From the NCBI GenBank assembly GCA_017516445.1, contig JAFXCZ010000012.1, positions 1-49,938 on the forward strand: a DNA stretch of 49,938 bases, written 5' to 3'. Shown one piece after another: positions 1 to 8,948 of the stretch (position 1 is the first letter of the stretch; every line of letters starts with the position of its first letter). Origin of the DNA: Clostridia bacterium. GTDB lineage: Bacteria > Bacillota > Clostridia > Oscillospirales > Acutalibacteraceae. A model generated the notes under the pieces. The model did no database searches and had not been told where the DNA came from. It saw only the letters and a list, made by a program, of their open reading frames with translations. Position numbers and translations under genes: made by a program.

Positions 1-299
1 ATAAGGACAAGTATACTGAAGCCATCGCCGACTGTTCCCAAAGGATAAAAGACCTTAGGGAAAGACGGGATATGCTTATGACGCATATAAAGTGTAATGA
101 AAAAGCCAGAGAAGAAATTGAACGAATTGAAAATTACACAAAACAGATGAAGCCGGTAATGACCGAGTTCGATGACGCGATTATTCACCGAATTGTGAAT
201 TCAATTCAGGTGACAAAAGATCTTAATTTAAGAATTTTTATAAAGGGTGGGGCAGAGATCATTGAGCCTTTGTTTCCCGATGAAGAAGAGTCGGCATAA
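1..299 (+). CDS. C-terminal end of a probable serine site-specific recombinase (partial)
   Basis: The frame is open from base 3 with no start, so the gene enters from outside the window and only about 98 residues are visible. The fragment is a charged helical stretch (KDLRERRDM, then KAREEIERIENYTKQM) followed by EFDDAIIHRIVNSIQV and a short strand-like tail with RIFIKGGAEIIEPLF. This arrangement, a coiled coil and then an 'FDD..hR.hV..I.V' segment with an FKGGAE-like end, is typical of the C-terminus of large serine recombinases in Clostridia. The catalytic resolvase domain lies outside the window, so activity cannot be judged. It sits directly upstream of a series of cassette-like modules. 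It could instead be another coiled-coil DNA-binding protein; the family call is a moderate-confidence inference. Confidence 0.6.
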   Translation, partial: KDKYTEAIADCSQRIKDLRERRDMLMTHIKCNEKAREEIERIENYTKQMKPVMTEFDDAIIHRIVNSIQVTKDLNLRIFIKGGAEIIEPLFPDEEESA

Positions 300-322
300 A
301 TTTCAAAAAAAATATAAATTGA

Positions 323-365
323 AATAACTTTCTGCAATTTTTTTGTTGCGGAAAGTTATTTTTTA
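323..365 (+). terminator. Intrinsic terminator after the recombinase gene
   Basis: A 15-bp stem (323-337 with 346-360, one G-U pair) closes an 8-nt T-rich loop and is followed by a T run. It lies 24 nt after the stop codon. Confidence 0.85.
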
Positions 366-382
366 TGGTATAATTAATTTGT

Positions 383-451
383 AAAGAAAAACTGGGCAAA
401 ACCCAGTAAAATTAAGGGTTTCTCACCAGTTCTTTTTCGAACAGGAGAGAC
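383..451 (+). repeat. Module 3'-end element, copy R1
   Basis: This is the first of five related elements (R1-R5) found after genes of the accessory island. It has AAAGAAAA (383-390), a small extra hairpin ACTGGG/CCCAGT (391-407) absent from the other copies, then AATTAAGG and a 35-nt block starting GTTTCTC. The block folds into a long hairpin: GTTTCTC-A-CC-A-GTTC pairs with GAAC-A-GG-A-GAGAC, leaving two symmetric A-A mismatches. R1 is closest to R4 (3896-3930), with about 26 of 35 positions the same by eye. A private terminator follows immediately. Confidence 0.6.
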
Positions 452-452
452 A

Positions 453-489
453 AAAATCGACAATCTTCGTTAAGAAGATTGTCGATTTT
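453..489 (+). terminator. Terminator-like hairpin following R1
   Basis: A perfect 15-bp stem (453-467 with 475-489) encloses a 7-nt loop. The expected T tail is interrupted by a heptamer-repeat block. A second copy of the 3' arm sequence (TGTCGATTTT) appears at 531-540 beyond that block. Confidence 0.7.
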
Positions 490-578
490 ACTTTTTACCT
501 CTTACTTCTTCACTCTTCACTTGTCCTTTGTGTCGATTTTTGGAAAGAAACAGGTAAAAAGTACGAGGTAATAAGTAT
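489..578. repeat. Heptamer-repeat inverted-repeat element, copy 1
   Basis: The left arm is pyrimidine-rich and built of diverged 7-mers (CTTACTT, CTTCACT, CTTCACT); the right arm is purine-rich (GAGGTAATAAGTA). TACTTTTTACCT (489-500) pairs perfectly with AGGTAAAAAGTA (552-563). The left arm lies between two copies of TGTCGATTTT (480-489 and 531-540), which looks like a duplicated target or a duplicated terminator arm. Related elements are at 3188-3274, 16878-16978, 36507-36620 and 49380-49415. Confidence 0.6.
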
Positions 579-595
579 TTTAGCAACGCTTTGCC

Positions 596-624
596 TTGCA
601 GTTTTTATTATAAAGCAGTATAAT
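596..624 (+). promoter_or_regulatory. Sigma-A-type promoter of the TIR gene
   Basis: TTGCAG (596-601) and TATAAT (619-624) are separated by 17 nt. About 85 nt of leader follows before the ATG at 709, with a GGGAGAG ribosome binding site. It shares the TTGC...TATAAT layout, but not the conserved flanks, of the other cassette promoters. The rest of the 300-708 gap is accounted for by the hairpins and repeats listed separately. Confidence 0.7.
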
Positions 625-708
625 TAATATAAAGGAAATTTCACAAAAATGTTTTGGAGTTATTAATATAACGCATTTTGAAAAAGGTATTTTAGGGAGA
701 GTTGTAAT

Positions 709-1815
709 ATGTTTTGTAAAAAGAATATTTTTATCTCACATTCTTCTGAAAATAGGGAGATTGCGGAACAACTTTGTGCTTTTATCACAAGGCTGGGTAT
801 AAAAGAAAGTAGGATATTCTGTTCATCTATTATTGGTCAGGGAGTGAATAACGGAGAGAAGTTAAACGACGCTATTTCAGTCTCAATAAATAAGGCGCAA
901 GTTATTGTATACATAATTTCAAGAGATTTTATCGAGAGTTCTTACTGTATGGAAGAACTTGGAATAGGTTGGTATTTGTCTCAATTTAAAAAAGCTTCTT
1001 GTTTTTATTTGATTCTTCCTGACATTGATTTGTCAGACTTAAAAGGATTTGTGAACTCGAAAATTGATAAGTTTTCTTTTGTTGATAAGTCTCATAGCGG
1101 AGATTTAGGTTTGTTCGCAGAAAATCTATGCGAAATTTTAAAGATTAGACTTCCTAAACATTCTGTTTTAGTGAATGCAGAAAACACCTTTATTAGTGCA
1201 ACAAAAGCTTCTATTGAATCAATTATGGAAAAAAGCGAGAATATAAAAAAAGAAAAAGAGAAAAAAGAAAAAGAAACTGAAACACTGCAAAAGGAAATTA
1301 AACACTTGAAAGAAAATTTAGATACCCTGAATAAGCGTATTCAAGATAGTCGCGAAGAAAGAAACAACGAACTTTTAAAACAGGAATTAAGGACAATATG
1401 TGAAAGATTTCGTTATTTGGGATTTAGAACGGGAATATCGCAAAAAGAGTTTGACTTGATATATAAAGAATTTTGGCTGAGTATGGTTAATCGATATCTT
1501 GAACTCCAAAAAATACTTGGAGGAGAGGATGGGGATATGGCAATGCTTTTGGCTACGATATATAGTGCTAATGGAGATTTTGACGAGGCATATGAACAGT
1601 TAAAGGTATATGTTCAACATCGAAACACTCAAGTTTATCCATCTTATTTTGAGAATATAAAAGTTGATGATTCAAACGATATGGAGGAAATAATTGAAAT
1701 ATTACAAGAGAAGATTAAGCACGAACCTAAAGGTGTTGTACAAGACTCATATAAAGAAACAGTAGAATATCTGCTTGAAAGAAAGAAAAAAATAGAAAGT
1801 AAAACTGATGAATAA
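709..1815 (+). CDS. TIR-domain protein with coiled coil and TPR-like C-terminus
   Basis: The first ~150 residues form a TIR fold: an opening strand NIFISHSSEN (6-15), a central strand QVIVYIISRDF (64-74), and the SxxCMEEL motif (77-84), whose Glu83 occupies the position of the catalytic glutamate of TIR NAD-cleaving enzymes. A strongly charged coiled coil rich in K and E follows (~170-225), then a helical region containing one TPR-like motif (MLLATIYSANGDFDEAYEQL). Bacterial TIR proteins with extra sensor domains commonly act in anti-phage defence by depleting or converting NAD; that role is inferred here. The gene has its own promoter and a methyltransferase gene 44 nt downstream, probably cotranscribed. 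The region is AT-rich and lies beside a recombinase tail, which suggests horizontal acquisition. No transmembrane segment is visible. Confidence 0.8.
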   Translation: MFCKKNIFISHSSENREIAEQLCAFITRLGIKESRIFCSSIIGQGVNNGEKLNDAISVSINKAQVIVYIISRDFIESSYCMEELGIGWYLSQFKKASCFYLILPDIDLSDLKGFVNSKIDKFSFVDKSHSGDLGLFAENLCEILKIRLPKHSVLVNAENTFISATKASIESIMEKSENIKKEKEKKEKETETLQKEIKHLKENLDTLNKRIQDSREERNNELLKQELRTICERFRYLGFRTGISQKEFDLIYKEFWLSMVNRYLELQKILGGEDGDMAMLLATIYSANGDFDEAYEQLKVYVQHRNTQVYPSYFENIKVDDSNDMEEIIEILQEKIKHEPKGVVQDSYKETVEYLLERKKKIESKTDE

Positions 1816-1859
1816 AGCGTTTGAAGACATTGTTTTAAAATTGTAAAGGAAAATGCAAA

Positions 1860-2450
1860 ATGAAAAATGTAATTTCACATTATGATAAATTAATTGATGA
1901 GGATAATGACCCTTTTCGTGATGATATTCCGTTACAAGAATATATGGATAAATGGGATGGACATGCTTTTATTGATTTATTGGAATTAACAGATAAAAAG
2001 AGTGTTCTTGAGATTGGTGTTGGTACTGGTAGATTAGCAATAAAGGTGTTGCCTTTTTGCAAAGACTTTACTGGTATAGATATTTCGCTCAAAACAATAA
2101 AAAGAGCAAAAGAAAACCTTGCTGATTATAATGTGAATTTAATTTGCAATGACTTTTTAAACTACGCTTTTGATAAAAAGTTTGATGTTGTTTATTCAAG
2201 TTTGACATTTATGCACATTAAAGAAAAGCAAGTTGCAATTCAAAAAGTTTATAATCTACTTAACAACAATGGATTATTTGTTCTTTCGATTGATAAAAAT
2301 CAATCTGAATTTATAGAAATGGGCAACAGAGAGATAAGGATATATCCCGATACGAAGGAATTAATTTCTAATCTTTTTAAGGAAATAGGATTTTTAAATA
2401 TAATACTTATTGAAACGGAATTTGCATATATAATCAAAGGAAAAAGATAA
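1860..2450 (+). CDS. Class I SAM-dependent methyltransferase
   Basis: A 196-residue Rossmann-type methyltransferase. Motif I is VLEIGVGTGRLA (~49-60), then FTGIDIS with the acidic ribose-binding Asp, a later CNDF motif, and the motif IV/post-I region FDVVYSSLTFMHI. The sequence resembles small-molecule or ubiE-type methyltransferases rather than DNA methyltransferases: there is no DPPY/NPPY motif. The substrate is unknown. An AAAGGAAA ribosome binding site precedes the ATG. It lies 44 nt after the TIR gene without an intervening terminator and is followed at once by the R2 element and a strong terminator, so the two genes form one module. Whether it serves the TIR system or is unrelated cargo cannot be decided from sequence. 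Confidence 0.8.
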   Translation: MKNVISHYDKLIDEDNDPFRDDIPLQEYMDKWDGHAFIDLLELTDKKSVLEIGVGTGRLAIKVLPFCKDFTGIDISLKTIKRAKENLADYNVNLICNDFLNYAFDKKFDVVYSSLTFMHIKEKQVAIQKVYNLLNNNGLFVLSIDKNQSEFIEMGNREIRIYPDTKELISNLFKEIGFLNIILIETEFAYIIKGKR

Positions 2451-2507
2451 GAAAATTCTTGGTTTTCAGGCACTTTTCATTCGTGTCATTAAGTTCAAAA
2501 CTCCCAG
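2449..2507 (+). repeat. Module 3'-end element, copy R2
   Basis: It starts at the stop codon of the methyltransferase with AAGAAAATT, then CTTG and a ~36-nt block GTTTTCAGGCAC...GTGTCATTAAGTTC. GGCAC pairs with GTGTC around a 9-nt loop, and outer GTTTT can pair with AAAAC. It is nearly identical to R3 (3101-3150); a short stretch (CATTCGTGTC) is the reverse complement of GACACGAATG in R4. Confidence 0.65.
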
Positions 2508-2541
2508 AAAAAAGTCCTGTTCGAAAGAACAGGACTTTTTT
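2508..2541 (+). terminator. Intrinsic terminator of the TIR-methyltransferase module
   Basis: A perfect 15-bp stem (2508-2522 with 2527-2541) is capped by a GAAA tetraloop; the T run forms the 3' arm. Confidence 0.9.
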
Positions 2542-2668
2542 CAATGATATCCACCTGCGGTGGATGATATATGCTTCGCATATGAAGGAACGGATATTAT
2601 ATCATATTTGCAGGGCAAATATATCATACGGCTTGCCGAATATCATATCGCACAGCGATATATCATTT
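2542..2668. repeat. Tandem mini-hairpin array 1
   Basis: Five short hairpins with different stems and mostly 3-nt loops are separated by ATGATAT/ATATCAT spacers: TCCACC-tgc-GGTGGA (2550-2564), ATATGC-ttc-GCATAT (2569-2583), ATATTTGC-agg-GCAAATAT (2604-2622), CGGC-tt-GCCG (2629-2638) and ATATCGC-aca-GCGATAT (2645-2661). Stems vary but stay self-complementary. No protein is supported here; an open frame through the array is chance. Confidence 0.7.
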
Positions 2669-2672
2669 AACC

Positions 2673-2701
2673 TTGCCCTTTCACCGCTTTTATGCTATAA
2701 T
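2673..2701 (+). promoter_or_regulatory. Conserved cassette promoter (DUF4275 module)
   Basis: TTGCCC (2673-2678), a 17-nt spacer and TATAAT (2696-2701) with an extended -10 (TGC before TATAAT). The block CTTTTATGCTATAATACAC recurs almost unchanged before the genes at 3326 and 4194. The RBS is the GGTGA stretch at 2713-2717. Confidence 0.8.
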
Positions 2702-2723
2702 ACACTTAAAGTTGGTGATTTTA

Positions 2724-3095
2724 ATGACAAAAGAAGAATTCTACAATAAGTGGATTGAAGTTTTTGCATCTAATATCCCTAAAAAAGATATACAAAAATA
2801 TGTTAAGTCTACGGGGAATTATATTTGGCATATCTTTTCGTGGGAATTGTTAAACGAAAACCAATATTTGATTGGAGAAAAAGCAAAAGAAGCTTATGAT
2901 AAAATTGATAAAAAAGGTGCTTTTTATATTGAGTGGTTTGAAGATAAGCATACCAAGGATATGATTTGTGATTTGAATACCGCCAAGGCTTTAGATGACT
3001 TTGTAGAAATATATGTTGTTGGCAGGGATTTTAAATGGACTTATATTAAAACACACGAAGGCATGTGCGGTCCATATTTTATGATAAATAAGTAA
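2724..3095 (+). CDS. DUF4275 family protein
   Basis: A 123-residue soluble protein. The start at 2724 follows a GGTGA ribosome binding site and the conserved cassette promoter; a longer frame from 2673 would run through the promoter and is rejected. It carries the features I associate with DUF4275: an aromatic YIWHIFSWELL segment (~30-40) and a C-terminal IYVVGRDFKWTYIKTHEG..GPYF signature (~95-120). The family's biochemical function is not established; it is a small protein often found in variable or polymorphic loci of Firmicutes. The gene stands alone between its own promoter and a private terminator, like a single-gene cassette. Function not assigned. Confidence 0.75.
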   Translation: MTKEEFYNKWIEVFASNIPKKDIQKYVKSTGNYIWHIFSWELLNENQYLIGEKAKEAYDKIDKKGAFYIEWFEDKHTKDMICDLNTAKALDDFVEIYVVGRDFKWTYIKTHEGMCGPYFMINK

Positions 3096-3100
3096 TTTCT

Positions 3101-3150
3101 AAAGAAAATTAAGTTTTCAGGCACATTTCATTCGTGTCATTAAGTTCAAA
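3101..3150 (+). repeat. Module 3'-end element, copy R3
   Basis: AAAGAAAATT (3101-3110), AA, then the GTTTTCAGGCAC block. It matches R2 with very few changes over about 45 nt and lies 5 nt after the DUF4275 stop codon. The same GGCAC/GTGTC inner stem and GTTTT/AAAAC outer stem can form. Confidence 0.65.
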
Positions 3151-3158
3151 ACACCCAA

Positions 3159-3187
3159 AGCCCCAAGGACGATAAGTTCTTGGGGCT
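3159..3187 (+). terminator. Terminator-like hairpin after DUF4275 gene
   Basis: A 12-bp stem (3159-3170 with 3176-3187, one G-U) encloses a 5-nt loop. The T tail is replaced by a heptamer-repeat block; a near copy of the 3' arm (GTCCTTGGGACTTT, 3231-3244) follows the block's left arm. Confidence 0.65.
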
Positions 3188-3274
3188 TACTTCTTACCTA
3201 TTACCTCTTCACTCTTACCTCAAAAAAGTCCTTGGGACTTTGGGAAGTAATAAGTAATAGTGAATAGTGAAGAA
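3188..3274. repeat. Heptamer-repeat inverted-repeat element, copy 2
   Basis: The left arm (TTACTTCTTACC, TATTACC, TCTTCACT...) and right arm (AAGTAAT AAGTAAT AGTGAAT AGTGAAG AAGTA) are imperfect reverse complements built from 7-nt units. A small hairpin AAAGTCC/GGACTTT sits between the arms. Confidence 0.65.
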
Positions 3275-3277
3275 GTA

Positions 3278-3306
3278 TTGCGGCTTCGCCGCTTTTATGC
3301 TATACT
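3278..3306 (+). promoter_or_regulatory. Conserved cassette promoter (membrane PH-like module)
   Basis: TTGCGG (3278-3283), 17 nt, TATACT (3301-3306) with extended -10 TGC, followed by ACAC and a GGCGGTGA ribosome binding site. It is the same block as at 2673 and 4144. Confidence 0.8.
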
Positions 3307-3325
3307 ACACATAGGCGGTGATGAG

Positions 3326-3877
3326 ATGCTTAAGTTATCCGAATCAAATGGTGACTTGATATTAAAACGCAATACTTATTTTTTGGGTGGAATTTTAATA
3401 GCCGGGATTATGGCTCTTGGAGGTTTGTTTGTAATTTTTGCGAGTTTGCCTTTCGATGAAGACTATGCTTTTGCAGAGATTTTCGGTTTAATTTTTGTTT
3501 GTCTCTGGGAAGTTGGAGTCATATATGCAGTCGTCTATTTTATGAGGGAATATAGTAAATATATTGTAATTTCAAAAGAGGGTATAAGTTGCCATACTTG
3601 TTTTAAAAAAGAATTTATTAAGTGGTCTAACATAAAAGATTGGGGATTGTCCTATTGCGGACAAACTCGATTTGAGGGTAATACGTATTACTTGTATTTC
3701 TCTGAGCACGAGTGTCCTGTAAAAAATGAGTGCAGAAAAAAACTAAAAGGCAGAATGATTAAAACTTTTGTTATAAGTGAGGATTATTATCTTGTAGTAG
3801 ACAATGTGATTCCTTTTTGTGAAGAAAAAACCGCTGTAATGCCTTTTATAGGTAAGGACAAATTTCATATTATTTAA
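3326..3877 (+). CDS. Two-helix membrane protein with PH-like region, unknown function
   Basis: 183 residues. The start at 3326 sits just after GGCGGTGA and is preferred over upstream codons that overlap the promoter. Residues ~20-42 (GGILIAGIMALGGLFVIFASL) and ~53-72 (IFGLIFVCLWEVGVIYAVVYF) are transmembrane helices. The rest is a cytoplasmic, strand-rich region opening YIVISKEGISCHTCFKKEFIKWSNIKDWGL, which resembles the bacterial PH domain found after two helices in many small membrane proteins (ligand unknown). Five cysteines lie in the soluble part. It is a single-gene module with its own promoter, R4 element and terminator. No catalytic motif seen; function not assigned. Confidence 0.65.
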   Translation: MLKLSESNGDLILKRNTYFLGGILIAGIMALGGLFVIFASLPFDEDYAFAEIFGLIFVCLWEVGVIYAVVYFMREYSKYIVISKEGISCHTCFKKEFIKWSNIKDWGLSYCGQTRFEGNTYYLYFSEHECPVKNECRKKLKGRMIKTFVISEDYYLVVDNVIPFCEEKTAVMPFIGKDKFHII

Positions 3878-3881
3878 AAAC

Positions 3882-3930
3882 AAAGAAAATCCTCGGTTTT
3901 TACTCAGTTCTTTTTCGGACACGAATGACA
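3882..3930 (+). repeat. Module 3'-end element, copy R4
   Basis: AAAGAAAATC (3882-3891) and a 35-nt block GTTTTTACTCAGTTC-TTTTTC-GGACACGAATGACA. GTTC pairs with GGAC around a T-rich loop. It is closest to R1; GACACGAATG is the reverse complement of CATTCGTGTC in R2/R3. Confidence 0.6.
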
Positions 3931-3931
3931 G

Positions 3932-3965
3932 AAAAAACTCCTTGAGATTTCTCAAGGAGTTTTTT
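3932..3965 (+). terminator. Intrinsic terminator of the PH-like module
   Basis: A perfect 15-bp stem (3932-3946 with 3951-3965), 4-nt loop ATTT, and a T run in the 3' arm. Confidence 0.9.
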
Positions 3966-4140
3966 CAATGATGTTTGCCTTGCGGCAAACGATGTTGGCT
4001 ACGCCAATGATGACGGCTTTGCCTAATGATGCGTGGCTTTGCCACATTTTTTGGTAAACATCGCATCATTGCGAGCGAAACGAGCAACATCATATTTGCG
4101 AAGCAAATGCATCATTTCACCGTAGGTGATGCCTCATTAC
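3966..4140. repeat. Tandem mini-hairpin array 2
   Basis: At least six short hairpins separated by AATGATG/GATGTT-type spacers: TTTGCC-ttg-CGGCAAA, GGC-tac-GCC, CGGC-tttGCC, TGGC-ttt-GCCA, ATTTGC-gaa-GCAAAT and TTCACC-gta-GGTGAT. The organisation matches array 1 but stem sequences differ. It fills most of the 316-base gap between 3878 and 4193; no gene is supported in it. Confidence 0.7.
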
Positions 4141-4143
4141 ATC

Positions 4144-4172
4144 TTGCGTCTCCACTGTTTTTATGCTATAAT
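4144..4172 (+). promoter_or_regulatory. Conserved cassette promoter (small membrane protein module)
   Basis: TTGCGT (4144-4149), 17 nt, TATAAT (4167-4172) with extended -10 TGC, then ACACCC and an AAGGCGGTGA ribosome binding site before the ATG at 4194. Confidence 0.85.
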
Positions 4173-4193
4173 ACACCCAAGGCGGTGACAATT

Positions 4194-4382
4194 ATGAAAA
4201 AAGTCAATGTTTTATGGTTGATAGCTTCAATTTGTTGGTTTTTTTGGACACTTATAAATGTTTTTGAGTTATTAACGGATGTTCCGTTTATAATAAGCGT
4301 TTGTGGTACAATTTTTATATTTGCTGCTGTTGTGGTACATCTAGTGATTGTAATTAAAAGCATAAAAGATAAGAAAAAATAG
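4194..4382 (+). CDS. Small two-helix membrane protein, unknown function
   Basis: A 62-residue protein. It has two hydrophobic helices, VNVLWLIASICWFFWTLINVF (~4-24) and FIISVCGTIFIFAAVVVHLVIVI (~32-54), joined by a short loop and ending in a basic KSIKDKKK tail, which suggests N- and C-termini on the cytoplasmic side. The start is fixed by the AAGGCGGTGA ribosome binding site; a longer frame from 4026 would translate the hairpin array and promoter and is rejected. Neither family nor function is recognised. It is the last of the serial single-gene modules, followed by R5 and a terminator. Confidence 0.65.
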   Translation: MKKVNVLWLIASICWFFWTLINVFELLTDVPFIISVCGTIFIFAAVVVHLVIVIKSIKDKKK

Positions 4383-4400
4383 CGATAAAAAGTTGAAATA

Positions 4401-4450
4401 AAAGAAAATTAGGTTTTTGAACCAGTTCCATTTTGAGTGTCGGTCCCAAA
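4401..4450 (+). repeat. Module 3'-end element, copy R5
   Basis: AAAGAAAATT (4401-4410), AG, then GTTTTTGAACCAGTTCCATTTTGA and a diverged remainder ending CCCAAAC. It shares ACCAGTTC with R1 and lies 18 nt after the stop codon; it is the most diverged copy. Confidence 0.5.
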
Positions 4451-4452
4451 CG

Positions 4453-4483
4453 AAAATCCGTTCTTTAAAGAGCGCGGATTTTT
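4453..4483 (+). terminator. Terminator of the last accessory module
   Basis: AAATCCG pairs with CGGATTT, with an inner TCTTT/AAAGA stem and a short internal mismatch, followed by a T run. Confidence 0.7.
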
Positions 4484-4558
4484 GTTTGTATTATTCACTA
4501 TTGAATTAGCTTGGTGATTGTGTTAAAATTATAAAATGAATATTTGGAGATGTTGGAA

Positions 4559-5365: not shown

Positions 5366-5442
5366 TATGCATAGTTGTATTTGCAATTTTTTAGAATTAT
5401 TGGATTTAAAGCTTTAAAAGTATAAATATGGGAGGTATAGAT

Positions 5443-7242
5443 ATGTATAACAAATTTTGCAAGAAGCAGCTTTGGGAATGCTCAGCGGATTTATCGGCAG
5501 TAGCGTTTGGTAAAATTCCTGCCGAGACAGTAATTAAAAACGCCAAGCTTATCAATGTATGCACAAAAGAAATAATGGAAAATACAGATGTTGCTATTCA
5601 CAGCGGAAGAATTGCCCTTGTGGGTGATGCATCGCATTGTATAGGTGAAAACACAAAGGTTATTGATGCTGAGGGTATGTATATAGCACCCGGTATGCTT
5701 GACGGTCATATTCATATCGAGTCTTCAATGCTAAGCGCCGGTGAATATGCGCGCTCGGTTATTCCTCACGGTACAACTGGTATTTATTATGACCCACACG
5801 AAATTTGTAATGTTTTAGGCTTTGACGGTGTTGAGCTTATGATTAAGGACGCTGAAAGAACACCGCTTAAAGCAATGCTGACACTTCCTTCCTGTGTACC
5901 GGCAGTACCCGGTTTTGAGGATAGCGGCGCTGTTATAACTTCGTCTGATATCAAAGAACAGATAAAATTAGACGAGGCAGTAGGCTTGGGTGAAATGATG
6001 AATTTTCCGGGCATACATATGAGTAACGCCGAAACCCACGCTATAACAGGTGAAACCCTTAAAGCAGATAAAATTGTTACAGGTCATTATTCTATACCTG
6101 ATACCGGTATGGGACTTAATGCGTACATAGCAGCAGGGGTAAGATGCTGCCACGAGTCTACAAGGGCAGAGGATGCGTTGCAAAAAATGCGTCTTGGTAT
6201 GTATGCAATGTTCAGGGAAGGTTCTGCTTGGCACGATTTAAAGGAGGTCAGCCGCGCAGTTACTGAGAATAAGGTTGATTCACGCTTTGCGGTGTTGATT
6301 TCTGATGACACCCATCCGCACACGCTACTTGAATACGGGCACCTTGACCATATTGTAAGACGTGCAATCGAGGAGGGTATTGACCCTGTTGAAGCAGTAC
6401 AAATGGTTACTATAAACTGTGCACAATGCTTTCATATGGATAATGAATTGGGCTCTATCACACCGGGCAAGTGTGCAGATATAATCTTTATAGATAATCT
6501 TCAAAGCTTTAATGTTAAAAAGGTTATTATCGACGGTGATTTGGTAGCCGAAAACGGCAGTATGTTAAGCAGTTTTGAAAATTACGAATATCCTGAATAT
6601 GCAATGAATACTATGCATATCGGTGAAGAAATTACGGCTGATACCTTTAAGATTAAAACAGATAAAAAAGATAGGGTAACAGTAAGAGCTATTGAAATTA
6701 TTCCTGCGAGGGTGGGCGACTATGAACGCCATATAACCCTTGAAGCTAAGGACGGCTTTATTGAGTCGGATGTGGAACAGGATGTTTTAAAAACCTTTGT
6801 TTTTGAACGTCATAACAATACAGGTAAGCATGGTGTAGGCTTTGTTAAGGGCTTTAATATTAAATGCGGTGCTATGGCTTCTACTGTGGCTCACGATGCA
6901 CACAATTTGCTTGTAATCGGCACTAATGATGAGGATATGGCACTTGCGGCAAATACTCTTATTAAATGTGGAGGAGGTATGTGTGCTGTAAGAGATGGCA
7001 AGGTGTTAGGCTGTGTTGAGCTGCCACTCGCAGGGCTTATGAATGTAAAATCAGCCGAAGAAATGAGCGAAAGCGTGGCAAACCTTGATAAAGCTTGGAA
7101 AGAAATAGGTTGTGACATTGTGTCGCCCTTTATGACAATGGCGTTAATACCGCTTGCTTGTCTGCCTGAGCTTAGGCTTACCGATAGAGGTTTAGTAGAC
7201 TGTATAAACTTTAAATTTGCTGACTTAGAGGTGGAAGAATAA
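5443..7242 (+). CDS. ade: Adenine deaminase
   Basis: 599 residues, the usual length for bacterial Ade (EC 3.5.4.2), which converts adenine to hypoxanthine and ammonia with a bound metal centre. The amidohydrolase signature GMLDGHIHIESSML is at about 87-100; other family motifs are PHGTTGIYYDPHE, TGHYSIPDTG and LISDDTHPHTLLEYGHLD. The Ade-specific C-terminal domain (VKGFNIKCGAMASTVAHDAHN and PLAGLM) is complete and ends LTDRGLVDC. The start at 5443 follows GGGAGGT. A second, diverged copy of the last ~33 codons is fused to a nadE fragment at 8847-8948. The gene ends at a bidirectional terminator. Confidence 0.95.
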   Translation: MYNKFCKKQLWECSADLSAVAFGKIPAETVIKNAKLINVCTKEIMENTDVAIHSGRIALVGDASHCIGENTKVIDAEGMYIAPGMLDGHIHIESSMLSAGEYARSVIPHGTTGIYYDPHEICNVLGFDGVELMIKDAERTPLKAMLTLPSCVPAVPGFEDSGAVITSSDIKEQIKLDEAVGLGEMMNFPGIHMSNAETHAITGETLKADKIVTGHYSIPDTGMGLNAYIAAGVRCCHESTRAEDALQKMRLGMYAMFREGSAWHDLKEVSRAVTENKVDSRFAVLISDDTHPHTLLEYGHLDHIVRRAIEEGIDPVEAVQMVTINCAQCFHMDNELGSITPGKCADIIFIDNLQSFNVKKVIIDGDLVAENGSMLSSFENYEYPEYAMNTMHIGEEITADTFKIKTDKKDRVTVRAIEIIPARVGDYERHITLEAKDGFIESDVEQDVLKTFVFERHNNTGKHGVGFVKGFNIKCGAMASTVAHDAHNLLVIGTNDEDMALAANTLIKCGGGMCAVRDGKVLGCVELPLAGLMNVKSAEEMSESVANLDKAWKEIGCDIVSPFMTMALIPLACLPELRLTDRGLVDCINFKFADLEVEE

Positions 7243-8612: not shown

Positions 8613-8642
8613 AAACTTGTCATTTAATAGGGGGAATTTTTG

Positions 8643-8948
8643 GTGTTTAATGCAGAAAAAGTGAAAATTGATTGTGTTAATTGGATAAGAGATTTTTTTG
8701 AAAAGAATGGAAAAGGTTGCAATGCTGTTGTCGGTATTTCGGGTGGTAAGGATAGCTCGGTAGCGGCGGCGCTTTGCGTTGAGGCTTTGGGTAAAGACCG
8801 CGTTATAGGTGTGCTTATGCCGCAAGGCGAACAACACGATATTGATATGGCGTTAATACCGCTTGCTTGTCTTCCTGAGCTTCGACTTACAGACAGAGGT
8901 CTTGTTGACTGTACAAAATTTATCTTCACAGAGCTTGAAGTGGAATAA
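8643..8948 (+). pseudogene. nadE: NAD synthetase N-terminus fused in frame to an adenine deaminase tail
   Basis: The first ~68 codons (FNAEKVKIDCVNWIRDFFEK, GISGGKDSSVAAALCVEALGK, VIGVLMPQGEQ) are the N-terminus of NH3-type NAD synthetase, including the SGGKDS ATP-pyrophosphatase loop. After GEQHDID the frame switches to MALIPLACLPELRLTDRGLVDC, the C-terminal tail of adenine deaminase; its DNA shares 26 identical bases with ade (8847-8872 against 7138-7163) before diverging. Most of NadE, including the rest of the NAD-adenylate site, is missing, so NAD synthesis by this product is not expected. GTG 8643 is preferred (8 nt after AGGGGG); TTG 8640 is also possible. Likely a deletion fusion of nadE with a former ade paralogue; promoter and terminator remain intact. 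Confidence 0.8.

Follow-up and report, generated by a model that had tools for sequence, protein, structure and literature searches.

Integrons hold arrays of gene cassettes with one site per gene; their attC sites carry the core motifs RYYYAAC and GTTRRRY, and the cassettes are mostly promoterless. For cis-mobilizable elements (CIMEs), two papers describe tandem accretion at the 3' ends of tRNA or tmRNA genes, as in the ssrA islands of Dehalococcoides, with a serine recombinase as integrase (PMC3146451, PMC5704250). Two others describe the minimal mobile elements of Neisseria, where different whole-gene cassettes lie at one place between strains (PMC3898611), and streptococcal integrative and conjugative elements (ICEs) with a serine integrase triplet, whose named targets are hsdM, traG and mutT (PMC4701971). 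Here we analyse a stretch of 49,938 nt (the window, contig JAFXCZ010000012.1, our C15, positions 1–49938) from the 959-kb, 57% complete metagenome-assembled genome (MAG) of a Clostridia bacterium (GCA_017516445.1). Direct reading and a repeat search revealed at its start an array of unrelated genes with three near-identical promoter blocks and five copies of R, a short 3' element behind the module genes. In these uncultured gut Clostridia and their relatives, such rows of unrelated single genes have the look of a gene-exchange system distinct from integrons. L-numbers below denote loci and G-numbers the genomes compared.

The arrays share with integrons the cassette arrangement, the one site per gene and, in some loci, a recombinase beside the first site; the succession of serine recombinase, leader, first R element (R1) and array, found in several genera, may be likened to an attI layout, yet 25 of 62 array chains start at a tRNA gene. 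Modules here differ from integron cassettes in carrying their own promoters and terminators, and the candidate enzyme is a serine recombinase. We considered R as an attC site and rejected the idea, as R hardly folds and an attC core pair is present in 0 of 147 R elements, which extends what the initial annotation had said of the window. An IntI-type tyrosine recombinase (TIGR02249) was found over the cut-off in none of six R-bearing genomes, some of them incomplete; hits below the cut-off occurred in all six and in all 14 controls. The array system is not an integron.

CIMEs and the arrays resemble each other in their tandem units downstream of an RNA gene, which lack an integrase, in having a serine recombinase in the system and, at a few loci here, in direct repeats of RNA 3' ends; but here the units are mostly single-gene, ~0.5–1.5 kb long and in many cases equipped with their own promoter, a standard R replaces the exact repeat, and the arrays are spread over several families and many tRNA genes. 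Units stand directly behind the tRNA in those 25 chains, 15 of the 62 being cut by contig ends, and an exact tRNA 3'-end repeat separates units for 2 of 42 tRNAs and at L014, with R (tRNA-like in types B and C, not in A) in that place elsewhere. As in Neisseria, different whole-gene cassettes occupy one place, here by replacement at a tRNA-Thr/Spo0A locus; the flanks are conserved genes there and short repeated non-coding elements here, with a nearly exact junction that speaks against homologous recombination as the sole mechanism. G298, with its three consecutive serine recombinases, recalls the streptococcal ICEs, but the targets named for those are not tRNA-like sites beside arrays, and the G298 open reading frames (ORFs) that were scanned hold no conjugation gene. 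Among the best-scoring NCBIfam models for the G298 recombinase are CcrB and CcrC of the staphylococcal cassette chromosome mec (SCCmec) group CcrA/B/C, but at 102.6 bits against a CcrB cut-off of 900 it is not a member. In the open-access literature we found no recognised description of the R-cassette system, nor of a serine recombinase as integrase of single-gene cassettes.

From sequence comparison, we think it just probable that minimal mobile cassettes have been stacked into these arrays, behind tRNA 3' ends or at sites resembling them. R would serve as attachment site, imitating the 3' end of a tRNA and restoring the insertion point; units would be stacked and lost through site-specific recombination at CA|AAAA, and would afterwards be shuffled homologously within the shared promoter and R flanks. 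The recombinase would act in trans; the leading candidate is the large serine recombinase found next to R1, which a mobile element probably carries.

R elements and tRNA genes share a junction

A unit consists of a linker (terminator, spacer and usually promoter plus ribosome-binding site, RBS), one or a few genes, and R. The elements fall into three sequence types, with the consensus GGTTTTCAGGCACATTTCATTCGTGTCATTAAGTTCAAA(AC/CT)ACCCA for A, GGTTTTTAGACCGGTTCCATTTTGAGTGTCGGTCCCA for B and CGGTTTTTGACCAGTTCTTTTTCGGACACGAATGACA for C. Initial extraction yielded 112 distinct elements (53 A, 15 B and 44 C) and a wider one 161; all R counts rest on mismatch limits that differ between analyses, with weaker copies dropped before each count. 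When ORFs ending at most 170 nt away are considered, the typed core of the first set begins 10–59 nt past a stop codon in 101 of 112 cases.

The ends of 147 R elements and 33 tRNAs were compared pairwise wherever ends of different upstream type led into a common linker (at least 80% identity over 40 nt). Terminator-led linkers are common to R-A, R-B, R-C and tRNA genes; they follow the end of R or the tRNA CCA directly, and their start at ...CA|AAAA is fixed to about one base. Of 528 pairs, 370 have an offset of 0 between linker starts, and 476 lie within ±1. Identity over the 25 nt upstream of this junction is at background (0.44 vs 0.43), while downstream it is 0.89. The largest single-linkage cluster of linker starts (57) is found behind A, B and C as well as behind tRNA-Asn, -Thr, -Cys and -Leu, and a small cluster lies behind R-C, tRNA-Cys and tRNA-Arg.

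In a CCA-aligned register, R-B and R-C come closest to tRNA 3' ends. Their mean identity to these ends was reached by 0.002 of shuffles for B and by 0.004 to 0.012 for C, and by 0.3% and 1.5%, respectively, of 1548 genomic CCA|AAA sites from which R had not been purged. Exact displaced tRNA-Asn 3' ends (22-mers) were found for 2 of the 42 tRNAs tested, against 0 of 840 shuffled controls. This second end lies 288 nt behind the first in L048 and 221 nt behind it in L080, and reading of L014 revealed a 20-nt tRNA-Cys copy in R's position; terminator, linker and cassette follow in each of the three. Such displaced ends are the pattern that integration into tRNA 3' ends would leave, and by position they equate R with the tRNA end. 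These displaced ends, the shared junction and the location at tRNA genes all speak for site-specific stacking.

The 62 array chains begin at a tRNA gene in 25 cases (a tRNA within 600 nt of the first promoter or 2000 nt of the first R), at a contig end in 15, at a recombinase platform in 11 and elsewhere in 11, the platform share being inflated by eight loci that were retrieved for their R1. The initial annotation had placed a recombinase beside the modules; tRNA genes begin more arrays than the recombinase does. The window's MAG holds two more arrays with promoter block and R, one at the end of C14 (L015) behind 5S and tRNA-Asn and one on C16 (L016) behind tRNA-Thr.

R is rare and patchily distributed

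R-A (at most 3 mismatches) occurs in 30 of 70 genomes of the genus (control, 3 hits), and R-C in 33 of 300 genomes and 24 of 135 genera of the family (control, 0). In the order, 4 of 79 genomes drawn carry R-C, namely the genome analysed here and three outside the family (control, 1 hit). No genome has more than 5 hits of one R type; a named carrier is Clostridia bacterium RGIG5299 from sheep colon (L013). The initial annotation had said that R genome-wide behind core genes would speak against a cassette system, and this is not the distribution observed. Its private terminators are borne out across loci, a perfect stem of at least 7 bp lying directly behind 79 of 147 R elements and 0 of 147 shuffled stretches.

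An Rfam scan of the window, L013, L015 and L016 yielded tRNA and 5S only, one pattern each of R-A, R-B and R-C had 0 exact matches in a viral collection, and no phage match was found for an array piece. R as a hairpin or dyad site was rejected: plausible single-copy stems lack covariation (for example, GGCAC becomes AGCCC with GTGTC unchanged), and no R consensus exceeds shuffles in dyad score, the fraction being 0.22 for R1 and 0.14 for the R1 of G298. In L151, L155, L158 and L186, R lies 76–126 nt behind larger genes, by eye carbohydrate-active enzymes or an SGNH hydrolase; these elements are possibly array starts, or remnants left by cassette loss.

The array in the window

All features of the window array lie on the plus strand. 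The contig start truncates the recombinase gene, leaving the C-terminal 98 aa (3–299), and R1 (414–452), a C-like element with 4 mismatches, begins the array. Linker 1 (453–708; terminator, then spacer) leads to a module of a 368-aa TIR-domain protein (709–1815; Pfam TIR_2, 2.8e-9) and a 196-aa class I methyltransferase (1860–2450; Methyltransf_11, 6.9e-17), which is followed by R2 (2448–2506). Behind linker 2 (2507–2705; terminator, palindromic spacer, promoter block 2688–2705) stands a 123-aa DUF4275 protein (2724–3095) with R3 (3101–3157), and behind linker 3 (3158–3310; promoter block 3293–3310) a 183-aa protein (3326–3877), hydrophobic by eye in its N-terminal part and with a weak DUF5381 match below the Pfam cut-off, followed by R4 (3882–3930). 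Linker 4 (3931–4176; promoter block 4159–4176) precedes a 62-aa protein without Pfam match (4194–4382; a 98.5% nucleotide-identical copy lies in L046) and R5 (4401–4448), and a terminator (4449–4495) ends the array.

The claim of one shared 3' element after four modules and the recombinase survives in part: the five copies are there, but repeat search and typing divide them into three sequence types, R2 and R3 being A (96% identical over 45 nt), R4 C and R5 B. AAAGAAAATT is exact in R3 and R5 and one base off in R2 (TAAGAAAATT) and R4 (AAAGAAAATC). The promoter block TTTTATGCTATAATACAC, said to precede three modules, indeed stands at 2688, 3293 (1 mismatch) and 4159 and at no other site in the window at up to 3 mismatches; the RBS supposedly common to these modules is GGCGGTGA in two, the DUF4275 module having GTTGGTGA instead. 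Across the whole MAG the promoter pattern gave 7 hits at up to 2 mismatches, every one in an array, and 5 at exactly 3, including one in the C16 array; reversing the pattern as a control gave 6 at up to 3. In the family, 27 of 150 genomes have the block at up to 1 mismatch (reversed control, 5 hits), and several of these matches stand before ordinary genes without R. A near-identical promoter precedes most of the modules read and is absent from some, such as the L200 copy of the 62-aa gene.

Linkers are often 70–90% alike between genomes across at least 150 bp. Their spacers consist of short palindromic repeats (ATGATAT..., CAATGCTCCGCATTGATTT) or of AGTGAATAGTGAAGAAGTA-like repeats, for example at 2560–2660 and 3960–4130 of the window, and these repeat families are common to different genera. 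Between a tRNA or R and the next unit there is in some loci a non-coding element of ~200 nt (L048:225–470, L202:680–925, and on the minus strand L080:5938–6120 and L015:9680–9900), which may be a structured RNA. The motif ACCGACTGAGCGGGCGAAGG...GGGCACCGC...GTGTCGG is present in L048 and L202, similar in L015 and more distant in L080; mean column identity over the four loci is 63%, and L015 has no Rfam match there.

Beyond the array, the nitrilase flank of the window, considered as a marker for the empty site, has relatives in 9 of 70 genomes. The tail of the ORF at 8640–8948 resembles the end of the adenine-deaminase-like ORF at 5428–7242 (MALIPLACLPELRLTDRGLVDC), a short duplicated tail; its start resembles what we take to be NAD synthetase.

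A large serine recombinase precedes R1 in several genera

The recombinase-like gene proposed upstream of the modules turned out to be a genuine large serine recombinase. The window fragment alone has no Pfam match over the cut-off, but it is 94% identical to a longer piece, L201:1–972, which matches Recombinase and Zn_ribbon_recom. Against the G338 piece (324 aa), identity over the available parts is 94% for G000, 98% for G010 and G372 and 91% for G414, and the sequences also show copies in G457 and G212. In several genera the order is recombinase, terminator, promoter-like leader with a hairpin, R1 and cassettes, and the block with leader and R1 recurs in genera other than that of the window. 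In the window it comprises a terminator-like hairpin conserved among platform loci (322–361) and a leader without visible ORF (360–407), made of promoter-like TTTTATGGTATAAT and hairpin ACTGGGCAAAACCCAGT.

We compared eleven R1 loci, to which chain analysis added a twelfth (L246, in G212); for G230, G372b and G342 the 60–102 nt available upstream of R1 stop short of the recombinase. The block common to C-like platform loci breaks off 3 to 14 nt past R1 in 36 of 45 pairwise comparisons; the remaining nine pairs also have the next linker in common or, for G457/G338, the first cassette. No type-A platform was found among R elements far from an ORF. Contigs of different genomes end inside the same recombinase gene or leader (window position 1; L198–L204, L246), and G372 has the leader with R1 in two copies, as if the region were multi-copy or variable upstream. 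The left end of the recombinase-bearing element was not found, the contigs stopping inside the recombinase or leader.

Among 60 recombinase matches, the window's own aside, 29 loci were scanned and 30 fell outside the scan, one of these at 51%. R stands behind the gene in all five scanned loci with at least 57% identity and in 0 of 24 with at most 41%. The 57% case is the last of the three recombinases in G298 (the middle one lacks a Resolvase domain); its leader hairpin is unlike the others in sequence and alike in form, and its R is type B. The ORFs scanned upstream of this triplet (~5.6 kb) comprise PRiA4_ORF3, DUF4313, N6_Mtase, Transglut_core and four without Pfam match, with no relaxase or type IV secretion system family among them, so they do not establish an ICE. 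Neither the recombinase piece (E ≤ 1e-40) nor its leader matched a plasmid. The recombinase as a core gene of the genus was considered and rejected: in 60 relatives the 98-aa piece matched its own genome and four others at 28–43%. G212, of the same genus and outside that set, has a close copy. The link to R is clade-specific but leaves most arrays uncovered; this recombinase is a candidate for the enzyme, if the leading one. That it moves the cassettes, as first proposed, is what we infer.

Cassette genes are diverse and change neighbours

Taking ORFs of at least 60 codons that end within 80 nt of an R core, we obtained 121 cassette ORFs in 98 blastp families, with a median length of 163 aa; 67 of 113 non-redundant ones contain a hydrophobic 19-mer. 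Among the 25 commonest of 80 Pfam families, matches are scattered: helix-turn-helix (HTH) models have four members, GNAT, GDSL, GATase and YcxB two each, and PTH2, ADP-ribosylglycohydrolase, bPH_1, MFS and others one. No recombinase is among the 25 commonest families listed for the 113 ORFs. Isolated hits on models for defence proteins, spbK and AAA ATPases among them, are model names, the function being putative. DUF4275 occurs in 21 of 398 genomes and 18 of 135 genera of the family, mostly as distant homologues, a count that takes in proteins down to 29% identity that are not necessarily cassettes. In L014 (Oscillospiraceae bacterium SIG509) a DUF4275 relative stands behind tRNA-Cys without R.

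Genes with 98–99% nucleotide identity are found in different neighbourhoods. The window's DUF4275 coding sequence has a 99.2% identical copy in L013, where the 5' flank and R are unlike. R type is kept in 12 of 17 same-gene pairs, some of which share members. In ten pairs inspected as far as their flanks were available, the left-hand drop in identity falls at the RBS or promoter; the right-hand drop falls at the stop codon or at one of the two ends of R, 5' or 3'. The proposed cassette-like turnover of modules is visible at the orthologous DUF4364/tRNA-Thr/Spo0A locus, where the interval holds two cassette genes in G000, two others in G162 and one 53-aa ORF in G152; among 20 relatives retrieved, G162 and G152 alone have the tRNA-Thr at this position.

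Weighing the explanations

Several observations count against stacked, site-specific cassettes. R-A failed the test for resemblance to tRNA 3' ends (0.08 to 0.15), the best single tRNA for R-C was not significant (0.06 to 0.07), and displaced tRNA ends are limited to 2 of 42 tRNAs. R shows hardly any consensus fold, and no dyad symmetry beyond that of shuffles (fractions 0.54, 0.82 and 0.89 for A, B and C). No recombinase was seen beside the tRNA arrays in the part of their genes that was scanned, and the 11 chains starting elsewhere come down to six once four continuations and L061, probably a chance match, are set aside. At tRNA-Thr in G162 and G152 the genes standing in place of the cassettes lack an R, R type is unlike in 5 of the 17 same-gene pairs, and linker, gene and R are all shared by L050/L057 only, with unlike left contexts and R cut in L057. 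The upstream linker is unlike in at least five same-gene pairs, so that the gene did not bring its linker along, unlike a clean site-specific circle. This last point leads to an exchange of the minimal-mobile-element type, in which homologous recombination through repeated flanks would suffice and no site-specific enzyme would act. It would account for linkers that are 70–90% alike over at least 150 bp, for the identity of shared genes, whose left limit lies in the promoter or RBS and whose right limit is the stop codon or an edge of R, and for R types that differ beside a 99.4% identical gene (A in L147, C in L181). Mosaic flanks of this kind indicate that homologous shuffling probably also occurs. 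As a full explanation we hold it unlikely, since R-A, R-B, R-C and the tRNA ends have no common sequence that could guide a crossover, yet CA|AAAA is nearly exact, and both the tRNA location and the displaced tRNA 3' ends would be left unexplained.

Another alternative concerns the recombinase only and is compatible with cassette stacking: the enzyme of a mobile element would merely target R-like sites, unrelated to the cassettes, and R would have a different role, for instance as a transcript 3'-end element. The G298 triplet fits this, integrase triplets being known from streptococcal ICEs (PMC4701971), as does the recombinase match list (E ≤ 1e-40), which includes just 4 of 33 R-C genomes, with cut copies liable to be missed and MAGs incomplete. 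We nevertheless find it rather doubtful, given that 7 of 10 C-like platform loci have CGAACAGGAGAGACA as the right half of R1 and not CGGACACGAATGACA, the common R-C right half often expected of a hybrid site, that the platform block is conserved across the entire R1 and G094 keeps leader and R1 without a recombinase, and that at least one further R follows in 11 of 12 R1 loci (the exception is L205), with no conjugation gene in the ORFs scanned upstream of the G298 triplet. A further reading would be a serine-recombinase counterpart of the integron in gut Clostridia, in which the element-borne enzyme and R1 would collect and express single-gene cassettes with tRNA-mimic sites, tRNA genes would serve as dispersed platforms, and recombinase clades would be matched to R types (C-like R1 in the window clade, B in that of G298); we regard this as speculative and quite improbable. 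Least credible by far is that these are ordinary, non-mobile chromosomal genes whose shared flanks are regulatory start and 3'-end signals. The sigma-70-like promoters and terminators of the modules, the position of R behind stop codons (101 of 112) and the four R elements behind larger ordinary-looking genes would suit it, but R is rare, DUF4275 is patchy (21 of 398 genomes even with distant homologues), gene order at the orthologous tRNA-Thr locus is not conserved, and near-identical genes have different neighbours across genomes.

Implications

The arrays may explain assembly breaks at these sites. Their cargo is made up of many small accessory genes, among them a TIR protein, an ATPase, an acetyltransferase, a regulator and many membrane or unknown types, and the movement of small orphan genes between genera would become testable. 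If cassettes do stack through tRNA-like sites, this would be a widespread route of gene exchange in uncultured gut Clostridia, outside integrons.

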